From Limisphaerales bacterium (GTDB lineage Bacteria; Verrucomicrobiota; Verrucomicrobiia; Limisphaerales; AAA164-E04), in contig JAMASS010000007.1 of NCBI GenBank assembly GCA_024761205.1, positions 62,001 through 126,000 on the forward strand: a DNA stretch of 64,000 bases. The letters are read 5' to 3'. The translations under genes and the position numbers were made by a program. Positions 15,819 through 26,480 of the stretch are shown here, piece by piece (positions within the stretch are counted from its first letter, which is position 1; each line of letters opens with the position of its first letter). The notes below the pieces were generated by a model. It was given only the letters and a program-made list of their open reading frames with translations. It was not told the origin of the DNA and did not search any database.

Positions 15819-18533
15819 TTACTGGGCTCGATAAAACTTCGATCTGCTCGTGCTGCTCAAGTCGACCGTTAGCGATGACTGTGCGCCGGCTACCGGAGAG
15901 TAGGTCCCGTCCACCGTGTTTGCGGAGAAGAGCATGCCCGTAAAACGGATTGCCAATATGTTACCCTCGCGGCTGAATTCCAGCGTCGCTAGTCCGCCCA
16001 TGGGGAGTGAAGGCAAACCTGACATCGGAGATGTCGATGGCATAGGGGGATGTTTGGGAACGACATCAGGTAAGGGTGAGGCACCACCGGTCAGTAGGGT
16101 ATGTCATCCGCACTGAGAGAGACCGACTAGGCAGCGGCTTTGTCGATGATTCTGGGAAGGGGATCGGCAAAGAATCCGATCACTCCGTCACCAATGCGGA
16201 AGCCGGTATTGACGAATCCGCCTTCGAACTCTTCGTCTTCCAGAAATTTGGCGACGTTGAATTCGATGCCTTCGGCGGGCTCGCCGTCGAGAGTCGTGAT
16301 CGGCTCACCGTCTTAAGATAGAGCATCTTAGAGCCGTGATTGTGACCCCGGCTCCGCTGGTGCCGGGCGAAGATTCCTGCGCCAGCTTCTTCGCCAAAGG
16401 CTGCCAGTCTAAATATCTTGAACATGGCGGACTAAGTGAAACTTTCGTTGGAGTCATACGATTCCGGATCCATCGCTAATATGTGAGTATTTTCTTGCGC
16501 TGACGTGTCGAGAGCCTCGCCGAAACTGCCAAAGCCTTGATTGCCCGACGTGATAACCTCGCCGTTCAAGAGAACGCCGTCGTGTTGTGGTGCGTTGGGT
16601 GATAGGTCTTTTACCGTATCGTTTGGAGCTGCGTCGAAGTTCCAGTAACTTTCCAGGAACGGCGCCACATGGGGAGTTCCCCGCCGGCAAAGTTGGGGGG
16701 TGGCTTCGATCGTCAGTATGGCTCTGATCCGATATCACGGTGTCGGGTGAGAAATTGCTGCTGACCACAACCCGGTACTCACCGGCATCGGAAGTATTAG
16801 AGATAGCAAGTTTCGCGGCGTTGGCACCTGGAATATCGCCCCGTCCCTTCTGCCATCGATATCGTACGGTGGTACCGGCCGCTTCCACTCGGAGCCGGGC
16901 CGTGCGCCCGGTTGTGGCCGTGGTGTCTTCAGGTTGGGCTGTGATGCTCACCGGGATCACTGAGCCGCCTGCGTTCAACATGAGGCTCTGAGTATAGACA
17001 CGCATTTCGTCGGTCAAGCCGGCATAGTTTGGTGTGTCCTGATCGCCGAGGTTGCCGATTTCAGGGAAGTTGTCGCTGCCATAGCCAATGGAGAACAGAC
17101 CTAAATCGAGTTGGTCACCAAATGGTAACCCACTGATGGCGACAGGGTTGCCGTCCACGTAAAAGGTCTGCTCGGTTTCACCATCGACCACTTGATTGAC
17201 GATGGCAACATGGTGCCATTCGTTGTCGATCAGACCCGGGCCGCTGCCAGCGTCGCCGATCCAGCTAGTGTCAAAGCCGAGCGCACCGTCGCGCACAAAT
17301 AGGTTTTTGTTTCCCGGCGCCCATTCTTTATCCGGGTTGCTAATGATATTGCCCTGATCCTCTGATTGGATCATTGCAGTCCAGGTGAAGTCTCCGTGGG
17401 TGTTGTCCAATTTCTCGTCCGGATCCCGAAGGAACGAGTCAAATCCAGTTTCGATTCCCTTGCCTTTGGATCCGTCAGCCGCGAAAATACCAAAATCTTC
17501 GAGATCCGCACCATTGCTACTAGCGTCCTCCCCGGGGTTACCCGAGGTTTCGAACTCCCAGTAACCCGCCAAACCAACGGCTGGATTCCAAGATTCGAGG
17601 AGGGTCAACGTTGCCGTGTCGCTGGTGATGGTTCCGGCCTTCGATGGCAGCGTCACCTTTCATCCATTGGTATTCCAGGACCAAGCCTGAGGCGTTTGCC
17701 GAAAGCGTGGCGCTCCGGCCAAGAATGCCGTCAGTATTCTTGGGTTGTCCGTTGATTTCCGGTGCGGGCAATTCACCGAGTCCATTGATCAACAACTCAA
17801 CGATCTCGCTGACCTCCAGAGCACGGTTATAGATTCTGACCTCGTCGAGATTGCCAAAAAAGGTGTTGGATTCGGGAAACTCCTCGCCGTCTTCTTCGGG
17901 GTCCTCTCCTCCCTGGCTACCTCCCCTGACGCGGAAAATGGAACCGTCGGGTGGTCCGCTGACCTCTTCCAGATCAACTACTACCTCGTAGACCCAACTG
18001 CCGTCAACATAAAGCTCGGACAAGCCGATCTGATCGTCTTCCGGGAAGGTGCCCACTCACCACGGCGGCATCATGGTGCCATTCCCCGTCTTGGATCTCG
18101 CCCTCAAACTCAGCTGCACCCACGAAGCCGACATCGAAACTCAAAAGGGATTCCTCATTCTTGAAGAGCGCTTTGGAACCTGGAAGCTACCCTTCGGGGG
18201 ATTTTGAGATCAGCGTGCCGGCAAGGTTATCGTTGACTTGAAACCAAACGGACCATGTAAAAATGCTGGTCGTGGAAAAACCGCCGTGCTGGTTTCAACT
18301 TTCGAGAAACCATCAAGGATCAGGGCTTTGCCCTTGATCCTGTCGCCGGAAGCACCGCCACTCGAGAGATTGTGTCCGTTGCCGCTCGAATCCGAGCCGA
18401 GACTATTGGCGTTTTCGAAGGCATAGTGGGCGACGAGACCGTCATCAATGGCGGCTTGAAGTCCAAGGCAAGTTGTGAGGAGCGTAGCCGTCATCGCGCT
18501 CCGAATGAGGAGGGTTGGTCGATTTCTGTTCAT
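15819..18533 (-). pseudogene. Large secreted LamG/Ig-repeat protein, multiply frameshifted
   Basis: The start at 18,533 gives a signal peptide (RSAMTATLLTTCLGLQA) and a first LamG domain (GLVAHYAFENANSLGSDSSG). Shifted frames continue with EWHHDAAVVSG and NLDEVRIYNRAL, an Ig-like linker (QPKNTDGILGRSATLSA), and a second LamG domain (GLAGYWEFETSG to DEMRVYTQSL). Another Ig-like unit (GRTARLRVEAAGTTVRYRW) and a third LamG start (ESYWNFDAAPNDTVKDLSP) follow. The C-terminus is the verrucomicrobial ending SANTVDGTYSPVAG...SKFYRAQ. At least five frame changes separate these parts. It would have been a cell-surface or exported adhesion or polysaccharide-binding protein. Confidence 0.85.
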
Positions 18534-20425: not shown

Positions 20426-23400
20426 ATGATGTTAGGAAGATTGAGAATTCTCGGGAGGGCCGCTCTTGGTCTGCTTGGGTTGTTTTCGGTGAATCGGGCG
20501 TGGGCAGCAGAACGGCCCCATGTTGTGATCATTCATGGGGAGCCGGAGTATGGTTCGGTGCGGACCATGCCGGTCTTCGCCAAGGAGTTGGAGCAGCGAC
20601 TGAATTTTAGAACGACGGTGCTCCAGTCCAATCACCCAGAACGCGGTGACTTGCCGGATTTAAAGGTTCTTGATGATGCCGATCTGTTGGTCTTGTTTAT
20701 TCGATTTCGGCTGGCGACGGAGACGCAGTTTAGCCGCCTGAAAGAGTGGTTTGACGCTGGTAAACCGGCGCTGGCGTTTCGTACGACGAGCCACGGATTC
20801 TGGGAGAAGAAGGGATGGTTCGTTCCGTTCTTTGGTGGCCACTACAAGTCCCACGCATCGAACCGGGCAGGAACGACGGTCATCGTTCCTGCCGAACAGC
20901 GATGCCATCCGGTGTTGCGAGGCGTCAATGGGCGTTTCCATGTGGGGCATGGTGGGACGTACAATGCGCAGCCGCTTTCCGATTTCGTAACCCCGTTGTT
21001 GCTGGGGAAAACCTTGGATATCCCGGCGGAACCGGTCGCCTGGACTGCTGAGTATCGTCCGGGGCAGCGATTGTTCTATACTTCATTGGGGGCTGAGGAT
21101 AATTTTGAGAATGCCTCGTTTCGTAATTTGGTATTGAACGCCGCTGCGTGGACTCTCAAAAGAGATGTTCCTCATGGAGGTGTTCTGGGGCGAGAAGTCG
21201 TTGACGATCAGGCGGTCCCGTCGGTTGCTGAAACGGCCCCTCTCAAGAGTGCCCCCGAAGGGGCGGTCGCGTTGCTGGCTAGCGGCGATCTTTCACTGTG
21301 GCGGCACTGGGATCCGAGCGTCGAGCCGCTCGCCATCGGCATCGATGAGCGGGCTGACACGACGAGCGGTGGGCCGGTGTTTAGCGAGGCCCGTTGGTTA
21401 TCGGATCAAGGCAGTGTCGTGGCTCGGCCAGGTTTTGGTGATATCCTCACTAAGGAATCGTTTGAAGATGGGGTTTATCAAATCGACTTTTTGATTCCCG
21501 AGGAACCGAGCTATGTGACCGGGAAGTTTCGAGGCAATAGCGGGGTCTTTGTTGATGGCAAATGGGAGGTGCAGATCATTGATTCGCATGGTTCTGAGAT
21601 GGTCGATGACAAAGATACTTGTGGCGCCATTTTTGGGGTTGCGGCACCCCGGGTGAATGCTTGCGGCAAACCGGGAACCTGGCAGTCGATGGAGATTGCC
21701 GTGCAGCATACAACTGGAGGGGCGGAGTTATCGGTCTGGCTTAATGGTCAGCAGATCCATGATCGCGTTCAAGTCTCGGAGCCAACGCTCTATGGATTTG
21801 CTGCTGAGGAAGAGGAGGAATATCCGGTTTCGGTTGTCGTATTCAATGAAACGGCGTCGGAACAGGCGAATTTTGGGAGAGATTTTACTTGTGTCATTCG
21901 GTTTCGAACGGAGGAAGACGGTCCGCTTTTCGGAAAGTGTCATCCGCTGGATGAATTCCGCAAGAATGATAAGGCACTGTATGTCGCCGAGGACCGATTG
22001 CACTTTGAGGTTAGATCGGTCGGCAGGCTCAGCGGCAAGCAGGAGGTGGCAGACGGCGAGTGGCACACAGTGGTGCTTCGCAACCAGAAGGGGCGCTGGA
22101 GTTTGACGATTGATGGACGGGAGGAAGCGGTGCTGGAGGAAATTAGATCGTCAGATAATGATCCGAGTCGTCTAGTGCTGGGTTATGCGTCGAAAGATTT
22201 TCCCAACGATGATGGTGAAGTGACGCGATGGACCGGAGAGATTGGAGAATTCCAGTTTTTCAAAGGAGTATTGACCGAGCAAGCGCTGAAGCGATCTGAT
22301 GGAATTAAACCCGCTGTGCGTTGGGCAGCCGGGGGAGGGACAGATGTCATTACCGGCCGCGCGGCTCGAAAGTTGAATATGGGTGGCGCTTTTACGACGG
22401 TGGTTCGATTCCGTGGCGAGGGGGATGGTCCGCTCTTTGCCAAAGCGCCGGCTGAAGGCGCGTGGGTTCCGGACGGCAAGACCCTGTTTGTAACTCGCGG
22501 GCGATTGGTCTACGACATTGGCTGGCTAGGCGCGCTGGTGGCCGAGGACGCTGCGGTTGATGATGGTGAGTGGCATGTGGCGGCAGTCACCCATGACAGA
22601 GGAAACACGAGCCTTTATCTTGATGGTAAGTTGGTGGCTCAGTCGGAGGACTTTGGACGGCCGGATGTGCGTAACCATGTGTTTAAGGTGGGGGCTTGTT
22701 CCGAGGACTTTCCAGAAACGTCTTCGCGAGAATATACGGGTGATATTTCTCATGTGGGCTTTGTTGCCAAGGCAATGTCGGCGAAGCGTCTGAAGGCGTT
22801 TGATCCGGCGAAGAATGATGGGGAGGGGTTTGTGTTGTGGCGTTCATATGAGGTTGCGGATTCGCGTGATTATCGCGTTGTGATGCTTGGCGCCGGGGGT
22901 GACGAGGATGAGGAGGCGCAGGGAGCCGAGGCTGTGGGCGGACCATTACGATTACAAGCGGATTCCTCTCAAGTCCGTTTTGCCAATATTTCCGTCGCGC
23001 CGTTATGTGATATCGATCATGCCACGATCATCAAGAGCTGGGACGACGAAACCCTGGTTCGTGGCAAGCGGGTCTATAATGCAATTTGTATCACCTGCCA
23101 CGGCAATTTGGAAAAGGAGGGTTCGTTGCCGACGTCTCGAAAGTTTTGGGAAGCTGAATTCAAGAACGGCAAGGATCCTTACCGTTTGTTCAAGACGTTG
23201 GGAACAGGTTTTGGCCAAATGCCCGCTTTTCCGTTCCTGACCGTTCAGCAACGCTACGACGTCATTCACTACATTCGTGAAGCGTTAGTCAAACCGACGA
23301 ATCAAGGGGAGCACTTTGAAGTCACTGAGAGCTACTTGGCAAGTTTGCCGAAAGGTGCGAGCACGACCGGGACGATGACCGAGGAAATGCTTGAGTATGC

Positions 23401-25546
23401 CAAAGGGTCCAAATATATGCGAATGAACTTCGGTCCGATGTTGGATTGGACCTATCAAGTGGCGCCGGGCAATATTGCCTACAAGGCGATCGCGGTACGG
23501 TTGGATGAAGGGATTGGTGGGGTGAGTAAGGGGAATGCTTGGTTGGTCTACGATCACGATACCATGCGGATTGCTGCTGGTTGGTCAGGGAACGAGTTCA
23601 TTGATTGGAAGGGTATTGCACTGGATCAATCGCACGGAACCCATGCCAGCATCGTGGGCGATGTCGCGTTTGTGAATCCCGTGGGACCAGGCTGGGCGCA
23701 TCCGGAGACCGGTTCCTGGGAAGACCCTCGATTTCTTGGCCGTGATGGGAAACCTTACGGACCCTTGCCGCGGGAGTGGACACAATTTCGTGGGCAGTAT
23801 CTTCACGGCCAAAAGGTGATCATTCGCTACACGGTGGGCGATGCCGAGGTGTTGGAATTACCCGGAATGGAAAAGAGCGATGCGAAGGTGGTTTACACGA
23901 GAACCTTGAATATCGGCAAGTCACGGCGGGATCTCCGGTTGCGTGTTGCTCCGAAGTCGACTGGCGTTGTGCTTGGCGGCGTGAGCGAAGCTACGGTGGA
24001 AACGGTCGATGGATTCAAAGTATTGAAGATCCCGGCGACCGCAACCCCGCTGCGAGCTAAGTTGCTCATTGGTAATGTGGCCGATGATAAGTTGGGCTTC
24101 CAAGCAATAGTTTCCGCTCCGGCCGAGGATTTGAGTGTTTACCTGAAGGGCGGACCGGTACGGTTTCCCGACATTGTGATGACTCAGGGTAGAAATGGCG
24201 GCGACGGGGCACCGTTTGAAGTCGATGAGATCACTTATCCCACGGACAATCCTTGGAACAGCTGGATGCGGTTGGGTGGCTTTGACTTTTTGCCGGGAGG
24301 CAAGCGAGCTGCGGTGGCGACTTGGTTAGGGGATGTTTGGTTAGTGGATGGCATCGATGGGAAGCTCGGAAAGCACAATTGGAAACGCATCTGTACCGGG
24401 CTGTTTCAGCCGCTCGGCGTCAAGGTTGTTGACGGGGTTATTTACATCACCTGCCGCGATCAAATCGCTCGATTATATGACTACAACGGCGACGAAGAAA
24501 TCGACTACATCGAGGCCTTTAATTCGGATCATCAAGTGACCGAACATTTCCATGAATTTGCCATGGGGTTGCAAACGGATACCGAAGGAAATTTCTACTA
24601 TGCAAAGTCGGCCCGACACGCCAAGACGGCCTTAGTGCCGCATCACGGTACTTTGCTGAAGGTCACTCCAGATGGAAAACACACAGAGATATTGGCCGTT
24701 GGTTTTCGAGCCGCCAATGGCGTGTGCCTCAATCCTGACGGGAGTTTCATCGTCACCGATCAGGAAGGGCACTGGACCCCGAAGAACCGGATCAACTATG
24801 TGCGTAAAGGTGGTTTTTACGGGAACATGATGGGCTACCACAACGTTGTTGATGAGAGCGACGAAGCCATGGAGCAACCCCTTTGTTGGATTACAAATGC
24901 CTTTGATCGAAGTCCGGGTGAGCTCTTGTGGGTTCCGGAATCCGCGAAATGGGGGCCGCTGAACGGCCAACTCTTGAACATGAGTTACGGCACGGGGAGG
25001 GTGTTCTTAGTGCCGCATGAAATCGTTAACGGTCAGGCCCAAGGGGGCATGGTCAGTTTGGGGCTGGAATTCCCCACCGGAACGATGAGGGGGCGGTTCC
25101 ACGAATCCAATGGTCAGCTCTACACCACCGGGATGTTTGCCTGGGCGGGTAACAAGCATCAGGACGGTGGCTTCTATCGAATCCGTTACACGGGTAAGCC
25201 AGCCTACCAGATCACGGGGTTGCGAGCGCGAAGGGAGGGAATGGAACTGAAATTTAGCGATCCGCTGGACAGCCACACTGCTGGAGACGCTTCGAACTAT
25301 GCCATCAAGATCTGGGATCTCAAACGAACGAAGAATTACGGTTCCCAACACTACAATGAGCGCCCGCTGGAAGTGAAGTCGGTCGAAGTTTCAAACGATC
25401 GACGATCAATCTTTCTGAGAATTCCGGAAATCATCCCGACATGGAGCATGGAGATCAAGATCAACATCCAGGGCGAAAATGGAGAGTCCGTCGAGCACGT
25501 CATTCACAACACCATCCACAATCTCCAAAACACGGCGATTTTCTAA
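20426..25546 (+). CDS. Giant secreted multidomain protein: ThuA, DUF1080/LamG, cytochrome c and PVC-type propeller
   Basis: The 1,706-residue protein has an N-terminal signal peptide (about 1-28). A ThuA-like glutamine-amidotransferase-fold domain follows (about 30-245, with HGEPEYGS and WFDAGKPALAFRTTSHGF). A DUF1080-type jelly-roll domain (about 280-860) is split by two LamG units (about 480-615 and 650-785). Next is a cytochrome c domain with CITCH at 888-892 and probable axial Met932 in FGQMPAF. A long PVC-specific region with a sorbosone-dehydrogenase-like propeller (about 1,285-1,600) and a C-terminal beta domain complete it. It probably acts in the periplasm or outer layer, oxidising or binding sugars and passing electrons to the haem. 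Substrate is unknown. The frame is fully open despite decayed neighbours. Confidence 0.85.
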   Translation: MMLGRLRILGRAALGLLGLFSVNRAWAAERPHVVIIHGEPEYGSVRTMPVFAKELEQRLNFRTTVLQSNHPERGDLPDLKVLDDADLLVLFIRFRLATETQFSRLKEWFDAGKPALAFRTTSHGFWEKKGWFVPFFGGHYKSHASNRAGTTVIVPAEQRCHPVLRGVNGRFHVGHGGTYNAQPLSDFVTPLLLGKTLDIPAEPVAWTAEYRPGQRLFYTSLGAEDNFENASFRNLVLNAAAWTLKRDVPHGGVLGREVVDDQAVPSVAETAPLKSAPEGAVALLASGDLSLWRHWDPSVEPLAIGIDERADTTSGGPVFSEARWLSDQGSVVARPGFGDILTKESFEDGVYQIDFLIPEEPSYVTGKFRGNSGVFVDGKWEVQIIDSHGSEMVDDKDTCGAIFGVAAPRVNACGKPGTWQSMEIAVQHTTGGAELSVWLNGQQIHDRVQVSEPTLYGFAAEEEEEYPVSVVVFNETASEQANFGRDFTCVIRFRTEEDGPLFGKCHPLDEFRKNDKALYVAEDRLHFEVRSVGRLSGKQEVADGEWHTVVLRNQKGRWSLTIDGREEAVLEEIRSSDNDPSRLVLGYASKDFPNDDGEVTRWTGEIGEFQFFKGVLTEQALKRSDGIKPAVRWAAGGGTDVITGRAARKLNMGGAFTTVVRFRGEGDGPLFAKAPAEGAWVPDGKTLFVTRGRLVYDIGWLGALVAEDAAVDDGEWHVAAVTHDRGNTSLYLDGKLVAQSEDFGRPDVRNHVFKVGACSEDFPETSSREYTGDISHVGFVAKAMSAKRLKAFDPAKNDGEGFVLWRSYEVADSRDYRVVMLGAGGDEDEEAQGAEAVGGPLRLQADSSQVRFANISVAPLCDIDHATIIKSWDDETLVRGKRVYNAICITCHGNLEKEGSLPTSRKFWEAEFKNGKDPYRLFKTLGTGFGQMPAFPFLTVQQRYDVIHYIREALVKPTNQGEHFEVTESYLASLPKGASTTGTMTEEMLEYAKGSKYMRMNFGPMLDWTYQVAPGNIAYKAIAVRLDEGIGGVSKGNAWLVYDHDTMRIAAGWSGNEFIDWKGIALDQSHGTHASIVGDVAFVNPVGPGWAHPETGSWEDPRFLGRDGKPYGPLPREWTQFRGQYLHGQKVIIRYTVGDAEVLELPGMEKSDAKVVYTRTLNIGKSRRDLRLRVAPKSTGVVLGGVSEATVETVDGFKVLKIPATATPLRAKLLIGNVADDKLGFQAIVSAPAEDLSVYLKGGPVRFPDIVMTQGRNGGDGAPFEVDEITYPTDNPWNSWMRLGGFDFLPGGKRAAVATWLGDVWLVDGIDGKLGKHNWKRICTGLFQPLGVKVVDGVIYITCRDQIARLYDYNGDEEIDYIEAFNSDHQVTEHFHEFAMGLQTDTEGNFYYAKSARHAKTALVPHHGTLLKVTPDGKHTEILAVGFRAANGVCLNPDGSFIVTDQEGHWTPKNRINYVRKGGFYGNMMGYHNVVDESDEAMEQPLCWITNAFDRSPGELLWVPESAKWGPLNGQLLNMSYGTGRVFLVPHEIVNGQAQGGMVSLGLEFPTGTMRGRFHESNGQLYTTGMFAWAGNKHQDGGFYRIRYTGKPAYQITGLRARREGMELKFSDPLDSHTAGDASNYAIKIWDLKRTKNYGSQHYNERPLEVKSVEVSNDRRSIFLRIPEIIPTWSMEIKINIQGENGESVEHVIHNTIHNLQNTAIF

Positions 25547-25689: not shown

Positions 25690-26480
25690 TACATGCGATT
25701 GATTTCGGGAACATCACGAGACCGCCAAGGTCTCAGACAACGGCTTCCCCTCCGAGAGAAGGCCCAATTCTGGGGGGTATCCCGCTCGCTGAAACAGGGC
25801 TTAACGGCCCCCAAGGAGAGGGTCCCTTGTGGCAGGCATGAAAGACGAATGGCCGAAAGGACGGGCAAGCATTTCGGCGGCAACGCCTTTGGACGCCGGG
25901 TGCGACTGAAAGCTGCCGAGGCGCCGCCTATCGGTCCCGAACGGGGCACCCCGCCGAAAAAGCGCGAACCACCCGGGCGGTCCCTCCAAGCGGGCGCCGA
26001 GCGCGCCCTCCTGGTGGTGCGGAGAGCGCTTCTTGGCACTCCACTGGCAAGCCGCCCCCTTGCCGCAGGAGCGCTGGCGCTGAAAAAAGCCGCTGGGATA
26101 GGCTGTGGCGAAAGCAGGGTCCAATGGCTCGCCAAGCGTCCGCTCTATGAAGAGCGCGCGCCAGACGGCAAAAGCGGGACTAACGGCACAAGGCGACGCT
26201 CCCTCTCGAAAAGGCTCGGGGGCCTGCCAGGGCAAACGCTGGGAAGAGGATCACCAAGCAGGGAAAACCCCCCGGAAACGGATTCGTGGAGAACAACGGC
26301 GACGCCCGCGCCCGCGAGGAGCAGGCAATTGTCTGTTTGGCCGGACGCCAAGGCAGCCCCTCGGGCTGGACACGGCCATGCTGATTCAAAAGCCCGGGGC
26401 AATCCTGGAGACTCCCCTTGGGGGAGGCGAGGGCATTCCTTGGCTGAATGCCGGTGGGCGCAATGACCGCTGGGATCCCC
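25690..26480. other. GC-rich, stop-poor block with no recognisable protein
   Basis: Base composition jumps here relative to both flanks, and stops are rare in several frames on both strands, giving overlapping frames of about 120-260 codons. None reads like a protein: the products are rich in Arg, Gly, Pro and Ala without hydrophobic patterning. Short inverted repeats such as GAGACC-GCCAA-GGTCTC (about 25,718-25,736) occur. The block lies between the end of the giant gene and a decayed oxidoreductase. It could be a structured RNA, a foreign segment, or a very old relic. Confidence 0.5.

Follow-up and report, generated by a model that had tools for sequence, protein, structure and literature searches.

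The window analysed here is a stretch of 64,000 nucleotides, in which a single reading frame (20426..25546, +; 1706 codons) encodes a 1706-residue protein that joins carbohydrate-related and redox domains in one chain. It belongs to a large uncharacterised family, of which it is a rare version and the longest one; it is built from known parts, and a pair of LamG units is nested inside its DUF1080 domain. We propose tentatively, with somewhat less than even confidence, that this multi-domain protein is exported and combines carbohydrate processing with redox chemistry: its core would oxidise a sugar and release the electrons through haem c. The window is part of contig C67 in the 92-contig draft genome (4.94 Mb) of an uncultured Verrucomicrobiota bacterium. 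The domains run in the order signal-like leader, ThuA, DUF1080, two LamG units, last DUF1080 strands, haem c, DUF6797 and six-bladed propeller, with the following positions:

20426..20512, +, N-terminal leader (residues 1-29), with the hydrophobic run MMLGRLRILGRAALGLLGLFSVNRAWAAE read directly in the sequence
20513..21175, +, ThuA domain (residues 30-250; PF06283, 52.8 bits; fold matches to 4e5v and 1t0b)
21251..21847, +, first part of the DUF1080 / 3-keto-disaccharide hydrolase domain (residues 276-474; PF06439, 90 bits)
21863..22345, +, LamG unit 1, within DUF1080 (residues 480-640; Laminin_G_2/G_1)
22361..22825, +, LamG unit 2, within DUF1080 (residues 646-800; Laminin_G_3 at 705-787)
22949..23011, +, last DUF1080 strands, GGPLRLQADSSQVRFANISV, past the LamG units (residues 842-862; HMM, alignment and model)
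23027..23299, +, cytochrome c domain (residues 868-958; PF13442, 38.2 bits)
23087..23101, +, haem attachment motif CITCH (residues 888-892; invariant in 50/50)
23219..23221, +, Met932, the expected sixth haem ligand (invariant in 50/50)
23399..23875, +, DUF6797 domain (residues 992-1150; PF20601, 112.6 bits)
24212..25192, +, six-bladed sugar-dehydrogenase-like propeller (residues 1263-1589; model, fold search and iterative HMM)
25193..25543, +, C-terminal beta domain (residues 1590-1706; strands in the model, conserved with the core in relatives)

The leader resembles a signal peptide, and the protein is presumed to be exported. The ThuA profile matched residues 48-243 (52.8 bits vs a Pfam cut-off of 33.4), and this part of the model resembled ThuA-like structures (4e5v, Z 19.4; 1t0b, Z 18.0). 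The first-pass annotation had correctly listed ThuA, DUF1080, two LamG units, cytochrome c and a propeller, and had overlooked DUF6797, which was matched at 1041-1144 (112.6 bits vs a Pfam cut-off of 24.9).

In the proposed mechanism, the LamG pair, projecting from a loop of the DUF1080 jelly roll, would hold a glycan, and the DUF6797-propeller core would oxidise a sugar (or similar polyol) group. Electrons would move along the same chain to the haem c held by His892 and Met932, and from there to an acceptor in the periplasm. The DUF1080 domain may act on, or recognise, the 3-keto-glycoside that such an oxidation can give, and ThuA, another family tied to keto-disaccharide use, may act in the same pathway. 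DUF1080 enzymes act on glycosides in the 3-keto form, which they cleave; oxidation would have to come first, and 3-keto sugars as the oxidised substrate, suggested earlier, do not fit this biochemistry. No operon partner in the window suggested a substrate; the next genes encode an amidohydrolase (dihydro-orotase-like) and a methyltransferase, and an operon reading was dropped on that account.

The nesting of the LamG pair in DUF1080 (PF06439, now named 3-keto-disaccharide hydrolase) was confirmed by profile scores, alignment with unsplit relatives and structure prediction. The Pfam profile matched residues 324-454 (90 bits vs a cut-off of 26.8) over positions 26-158 of its 187; the final ~29 positions were absent from this match, and the piece corresponding to them, GGPLRLQADSSQVRFANISV, lay ~370 residues downstream. 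An HMM built from seven unsplit relatives found two fragments in the window protein (320-460 and 830-859). Joining the two DUF1080 halves in silico gave 125.6 bits with this HMM, compared to 116.5 bits for the left part alone, and a control in which the left part was joined to a LamG piece gave no gain (116.2 bits). Unsplit DUF1080 proteins aligned to the window protein on either side of the insert, and the ThuA-DUF1080 protein L192, an 'empty-site' relative from the same taxonomic order, carries an uninterrupted domain of similar sequence (NGELIHDNVRVNEPTRWGFEEEGSNGPLAGPIRLQADSSTVRFANI) where the window protein has its LamG units.

Structure prediction, named in the first-pass annotation as the check on nesting, matched DUF1080 folds on both sides of the LamG units. 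The AlphaFold model of residues 26-968 had a pLDDT of 81.8 and a pTM of 0.58, at which the placing of domains relative to one another is unreliable. Its best matches were DUF1080 crystal structures (4qhz, Z 24.2; 9fbe, annotated as a 3-keto-glycoside eliminase/hydratase, Z 20.1; 8tda, Z 18.5), and 8rr2 also matched. These alignments covered 167-191 residues between model residues 245 and 835, skipped the LamG units and ended at model residue 835, which is residue 860 of the protein. The jelly roll is complete, last strands included, past the interruption of ~370 residues.

The inserted units are genuine LamG domains. LamG_3 matched in two stretches (63 bits, Pfam), and the corresponding parts of the model matched laminin LG4-5 pairs, pentraxins and CBM40 (Z 16-18 for LamG2), fold matches that rule out the counter-case raised in the first-pass annotation, namely that the units are propeller blades of one domain. 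The pair would be expected to bind sugar. In a LamG tree, in which most deep forks were weak, LamG1 clustered with the single LamG of the relative L065 (support 94/91) and LamG2 fell elsewhere, which suggests that LamG2 was added later, in this genus. A LamG of the window's subtype (DIGW motif) was also observed within the region past DUF6797 in L192:2484-5273 (+), where DUF1080 is unsplit and no CxxCH occurs, and in L042:874-3315 (+), a planctomycete-cytochrome (PSD/PSCyt) protein in which it separates DUF1587 from DUF1595; this is perhaps a case of a recurrent inserted lectin module. Proteins with no insert, one LamG or two LamG units, and with the unit at another site in L192, form a graded natural series; this offers a clean case of lectin insertion and illustrates how a lectin domain can be housed in another domain without breaking its host.

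Alignment revealed that the window DUF1080 retains family-invariant residues (e.g. GNSGVF, EVQIID, NAC, PGTW and NG), and that the usual LQDHG motif reads LQADS. Because the residues typical of DUF1080 are gone in most LamG-core relatives and intact in the window's genus and L065, DUF1080 activity is more likely in the window protein than in those relatives. The ThuA-DUF1080-LamG half might instead be a non-catalytic carbohydrate-binding or docking arm, with the split DUF1080 serving as a lectin scaffold. Such a role would suit a ConA-like jelly roll, which DUF1080 shares with LamG, as well as the LQADS change and the reduced DUF1080 part of most relatives, which lacks the GNSGVF and QI.D motifs (L017, L033, L060). 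However, intact typical residues in the genus and L065 would be unexpected in a pure scaffold, and we consider this alternative doubtful, though well worth weighing. Genetic work in Caulobacter showed that lactose use via 3'-ketolactose depends on a DUF1080 protein (PMC9007349), and another DUF1080 protein was reported to be an endo-xanthanase (PMC10881899). A literature search returned no papers on DUF1080 with ThuA or a cytochrome, which does not prove that none exist.

We assessed how widely this architecture occurs among relatives, which number at least 540 and come from Verrucomicrobiota and Planctomycetota. Named relatives belong to Verrucomicrobiota, and more distant ones to Planctomycetota. 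Among the 80 relatives that matched best in a search of genome contigs, one LamG ahead of the core was found in 51, the core without any LamG or DUF1080 detected in 24, the full architecture in three, DUF1080 plus core in one, and no cytochrome in one. The core alone (cytochrome c-DUF6797-propeller, ~880 aa) was seen in L011-L016 and many others; an unsplit DUF1080-like part plus core in L135 and L036; one LamG in a reduced DUF1080-like part plus core in L017, L023, L024, L033 and many more; ThuA-DUF1080 with one LamG plus core in L065, which is more distant than the genus; and ThuA-DUF1080 with two LamG units plus core in the window, L009/L086 and L010/L058. The DUF1080-LamG-LamG region was whole in three genomes, all of this genus, among 320 of the order, and a match from ThuA to LamG2 was found in the window's own genome only, among 384 genomes of the class. 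The genus member G020 has an 894-aa core only. In L046, a separate ThuA-DUF1080 protein with one LamG ends exactly at the last DUF1080 strand, and separate ThuA genes adjoin the core gene in L040, L043, L073, L074, L125 and L136. The arrangement had been called unusual, and the counter-case was a common identical architecture; that counter-case applies only in part. The long ThuA-DUF1080-LamG-LamG form is rare, since the whole chain turned up in this genus and L065 only, but a LamG nested ahead of the cytochrome core is common in Verrucomicrobiota (51 of the 80 best relatives). No characterised member of the core family was found in a literature search, nor were any papers on DUF6797, which again does not prove that none exist.

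The cytochrome c domain was matched by the CBB3 profile (PF13442) at 879-950 (38.2 bits, Pfam), and its sequence matched CcoP/bc1-type cytochrome c structures. CITCH (888-892) is the sole CxxCH in the chain, and each of the 50 homologues with a cytochrome domain shares C888, C891, H892 and M932, which bears out the ligands named in the first-pass annotation. With CxxCH and a Met axial ligand, the domain has the features of a class I cytochrome c and is predicted to bind haem.

Comparison of relatives revealed that the redox domain beside the core is exchanged. At eight loci (L060-L064, L066, L076, L099), three adjacent genes encode plastocyanin/azurin-PA14-DUF6797, a separate propeller and LamG-cytochrome c-DUF6797-propeller; these domains were read on the first gene of L063 and the second gene of L066, and the other loci were assigned by gene positions. 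At L063:5062-11978 (+), the paralogous pair with a cupredoxin in the cytochrome's stead lies beside the LamG-cytochrome c-DUF6797-propeller gene. Gemmataceae-type proteins have an additional cytochrome c-type region (CxxCH) ahead of the single haem c. Carbohydrate-binding folds, LamG or PA14, adjoin the redox part in both the cytochrome and the copper version. DUF6797-propeller paralogues without any CxxCH also exist, namely L002 in the window's own genome, L192 and L035/L132, which means that the core fold does not depend on haem. The exchange of redox domains around a constant core is the best sign that the core may be a redox enzyme, and an azurin-like copper domain in the cytochrome's place favours the sugar-oxidation reading. 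In Planctomycetota, a DPPIV/S9 peptidase-M90-like part (L128:8246-13828, +) or a SASA esterase-M90-like part (L107:4775-9526, +) stands ahead of the core, followed by an extra CxxCH cytochrome region; some stop/start boundaries may have been missed in these versions.

The model of residues 861-1706 was confident (pLDDT 90.5, pTM 0.88). Its propeller was closest to PQQ sugar dehydrogenases, with 2ism as the best match (Z 19.9, 286 residues, rmsd 2.7), followed by 7cgz (Z 19.7), 3a9g (19.6) and 3das (18.9), and in Foldseek, structures of the soluble glucose dehydrogenase (sGDH) type occupied the first eleven places. Designed Pizza/NHL propellers reached Z 18.7 and lactonases Z 16-17.4; because NHL, Pizza and gluconolactonase propellers score only 1-3 Z lower, the fold alone is no proof of a dehydrogenase. 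An iterative HMM started from the window propeller reached PF07995 proteins, most of them in rounds 1-2 with first-inclusion E-values of 1e-5 to 1e-20, the only values quoted because later-round values are inflated by inclusion. These two results uphold the earlier description of a dehydrogenase-like propeller. PF07995 gave no direct Pfam match in the window protein and was reached by iteration only, and TIGR02604 matched 1324-1475 below threshold (29.9 bits vs an NCBIfam cut-off of 122.2), so a plain assignment to either was rejected. Comparison of the propeller profile with GSDH alignments by hhalign yielded no usable match (E-values of 0.5 and 0.18), the first alignment set including wrong-frame ORFs. 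A PDB sequence search with the propeller gave no match, and one with the core profile returned cytochromes and weak designed propellers only.

These results leave room for a core that is a hydrolase, a lactonase or a glycan-binding scaffold, in which case the haem c would partner another redox agent, perhaps a separate oxidase or an electron path outside the cell. Gluconolactonase/SMP30 and NHL propellers are close in fold (Z 16-18.7 vs 19.9), core paralogues lack haem, and a set of invariant or near-invariant residues (H1374, H1376, H1398, H1406, H1407, D1445 and E1447) could hold a metal. However, the best fold and profile relatives are sugar dehydrogenases, and three forms of redox domain are found next to the core across the family; we therefore regard a non-oxidising core as unlikely.

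If the core does oxidise sugar, it may be a PQQ sugar dehydrogenase of the sGDH/AA12 type that takes PQQ from outside and uses haem c as its exit, as in the fungal enzyme CcPDH. We mapped the PQQ site through the iterative-HMM alignment and an alignment of L139 to sGDH structures. The sGDH residues R228 and R408 corresponded to R1428 and R1555, both invariant in the family, and the column of His144 held E1377, with the invariant H1376 one position before. The columns of N229, K377 and R406, the last of which we take to be a PQQ-site residue, held A1429, G1522 and T1553. In sGDH, roles in the PQQ site are described for His144, Arg228 and Asn229 (PMC6881810) and for Lys377 and Arg408 (PMC6881789). 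The loss of Lys377 is not decisive, because AA12 likewise lacks it (PMC6881789).

Profile searches for PQQ synthesis genes found no PqqC, and no PqqE over the cut-off, in 11 genomes of the window's family. Across 240 genomes of the phylum, PqqC gave a match in 7, of which five exceeded the cut-off; for PqqE none of the control genomes was above the cut-off either, so the positive control holds for the PqqC result only. Genomes of the same family contain strong GSDH proteins with full PQQ motifs (L138-L144), which in at least L139-L142 carry an N-terminal cytochrome c. PqqE and PqqC were not found in these genomes by profile search, and PQQ scavenging or another route to PQQ is conceivable there. 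The fold match, the two arginines, the neighbouring histidine, the AA12 precedent and these GSDH-bearing genomes speak for PQQ use. However, three replaced ligand positions, the missing PF07995 match at Pfam level and the absence of PqqC in the 11 genomes, the window's own being 95% complete, speak against it. PQQ use by the propeller is thus only partly backed by residues, uptake from outside may supply the cofactor, and we consider a PQQ enzyme of this type improbable. The first-pass annotation had described the chain as a self-contained sugar oxidation unit. That description is plausible: it is favoured by the fold, the remote homology and the redox exchange, and is weakened by missed cut-offs, partial PQQ ligands, PQQ synthesis genes that were not found and haem-less paralogues.

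A bolder version of the sugar-oxidation reading, which we rate as a long shot, is that the core forms a class of its own among sugar dehydrogenases, relying on a non-PQQ cofactor and an exchangeable haem or copper domain, and that in this genus it is fused to a working DUF1080 and lectins. If so, a single chain would bind a glycan, oxidise it, export the electrons and cut the glycosidic bond. Oxidative cleavage of glycans via 3-keto sugars calls for three components, namely an oxidant, an enzyme that cleaves and a way out for the electrons; this one chain contains a candidate for each of them, plus lectins. The core is a good target for learning what the many cytochrome-propeller proteins of PVC bacteria oxidise.

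In the neighbouring sequence, the divergent gene at window 15822-18494 (-) encodes a protein with three LamG units and an Ig domain, spread over several frames with changes near 17640-17659, 16722-16727, 16312 and 16097. The same gene is intact in L058 (1233-4190, -, 986 aa) and present as an 839-aa frame in L086; the window copy is either a broken gene or contains sequence errors. Downstream of the gene under study, long overlapping ORFs on both strands of a G+C-rich stretch (25693-26466) are probably non-coding. An assembly or annotation artefact, which the 92-contig draft and the frameshifted neighbour might suggest, can safely be dismissed for the chain itself, as two further genomes of the genus, assembled independently, encode the whole ~1,700-residue protein (~70% identity), and L065 shows the same domain order with one LamG.

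Compared to known systems, the N-terminal half resembles the DUF1080 family (BT2157, 8tda, 8rr2, 9fbe, 4qhz) in its score over the cut-off, its fold (Z 18-24) and its invariant residues, but differs in the ~370-residue interruption by two LamG units, the LQADS motif and the fusion to ThuA and a redox half. The soluble PQQ sugar dehydrogenases (PF07995; 2ism, 3das, 1c9u) share the six-bladed fold and remote profile homology, whereas the window protein has no direct Pfam match, several replaced PQQ ligands and a fusion to DUF6797 and haem c, and its genome yielded no PQQ synthesis genes. Fungal CcPDH combines an AA12 PQQ propeller, an AA8 cytochrome b and CBM1 in one secreted chain (PMC6881789). 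It is the most similar known design, with propeller, cytochrome and carbohydrate module in one chain, and is compared here only for how it works, because the tests for membership of the PQQ families gave negative or divided results; the window protein, with its predicted activity, has cytochrome c rather than b, LamG rather than CBM1, and added ThuA, DUF1080 and DUF6797. The PVC-type heme-binding CxxCH (TIGR02604) and DUF7133 propellers form a broad propeller-cytochrome c group to which the weak TIGR02604 match points; in the window protein the cytochrome precedes DUF6797 and the propeller, whereas in the DUF7133-HEAT-cytochrome protein L069 it follows the propeller. The uncharacterised LamG-cytochrome c-DUF6797-propeller proteins of Verrucomicrobiota have a core 45-63% identical to that of the window protein and a LamG in a reduced DUF1080-like jelly roll, but carry one LamG, no ThuA and a degenerate DUF1080.
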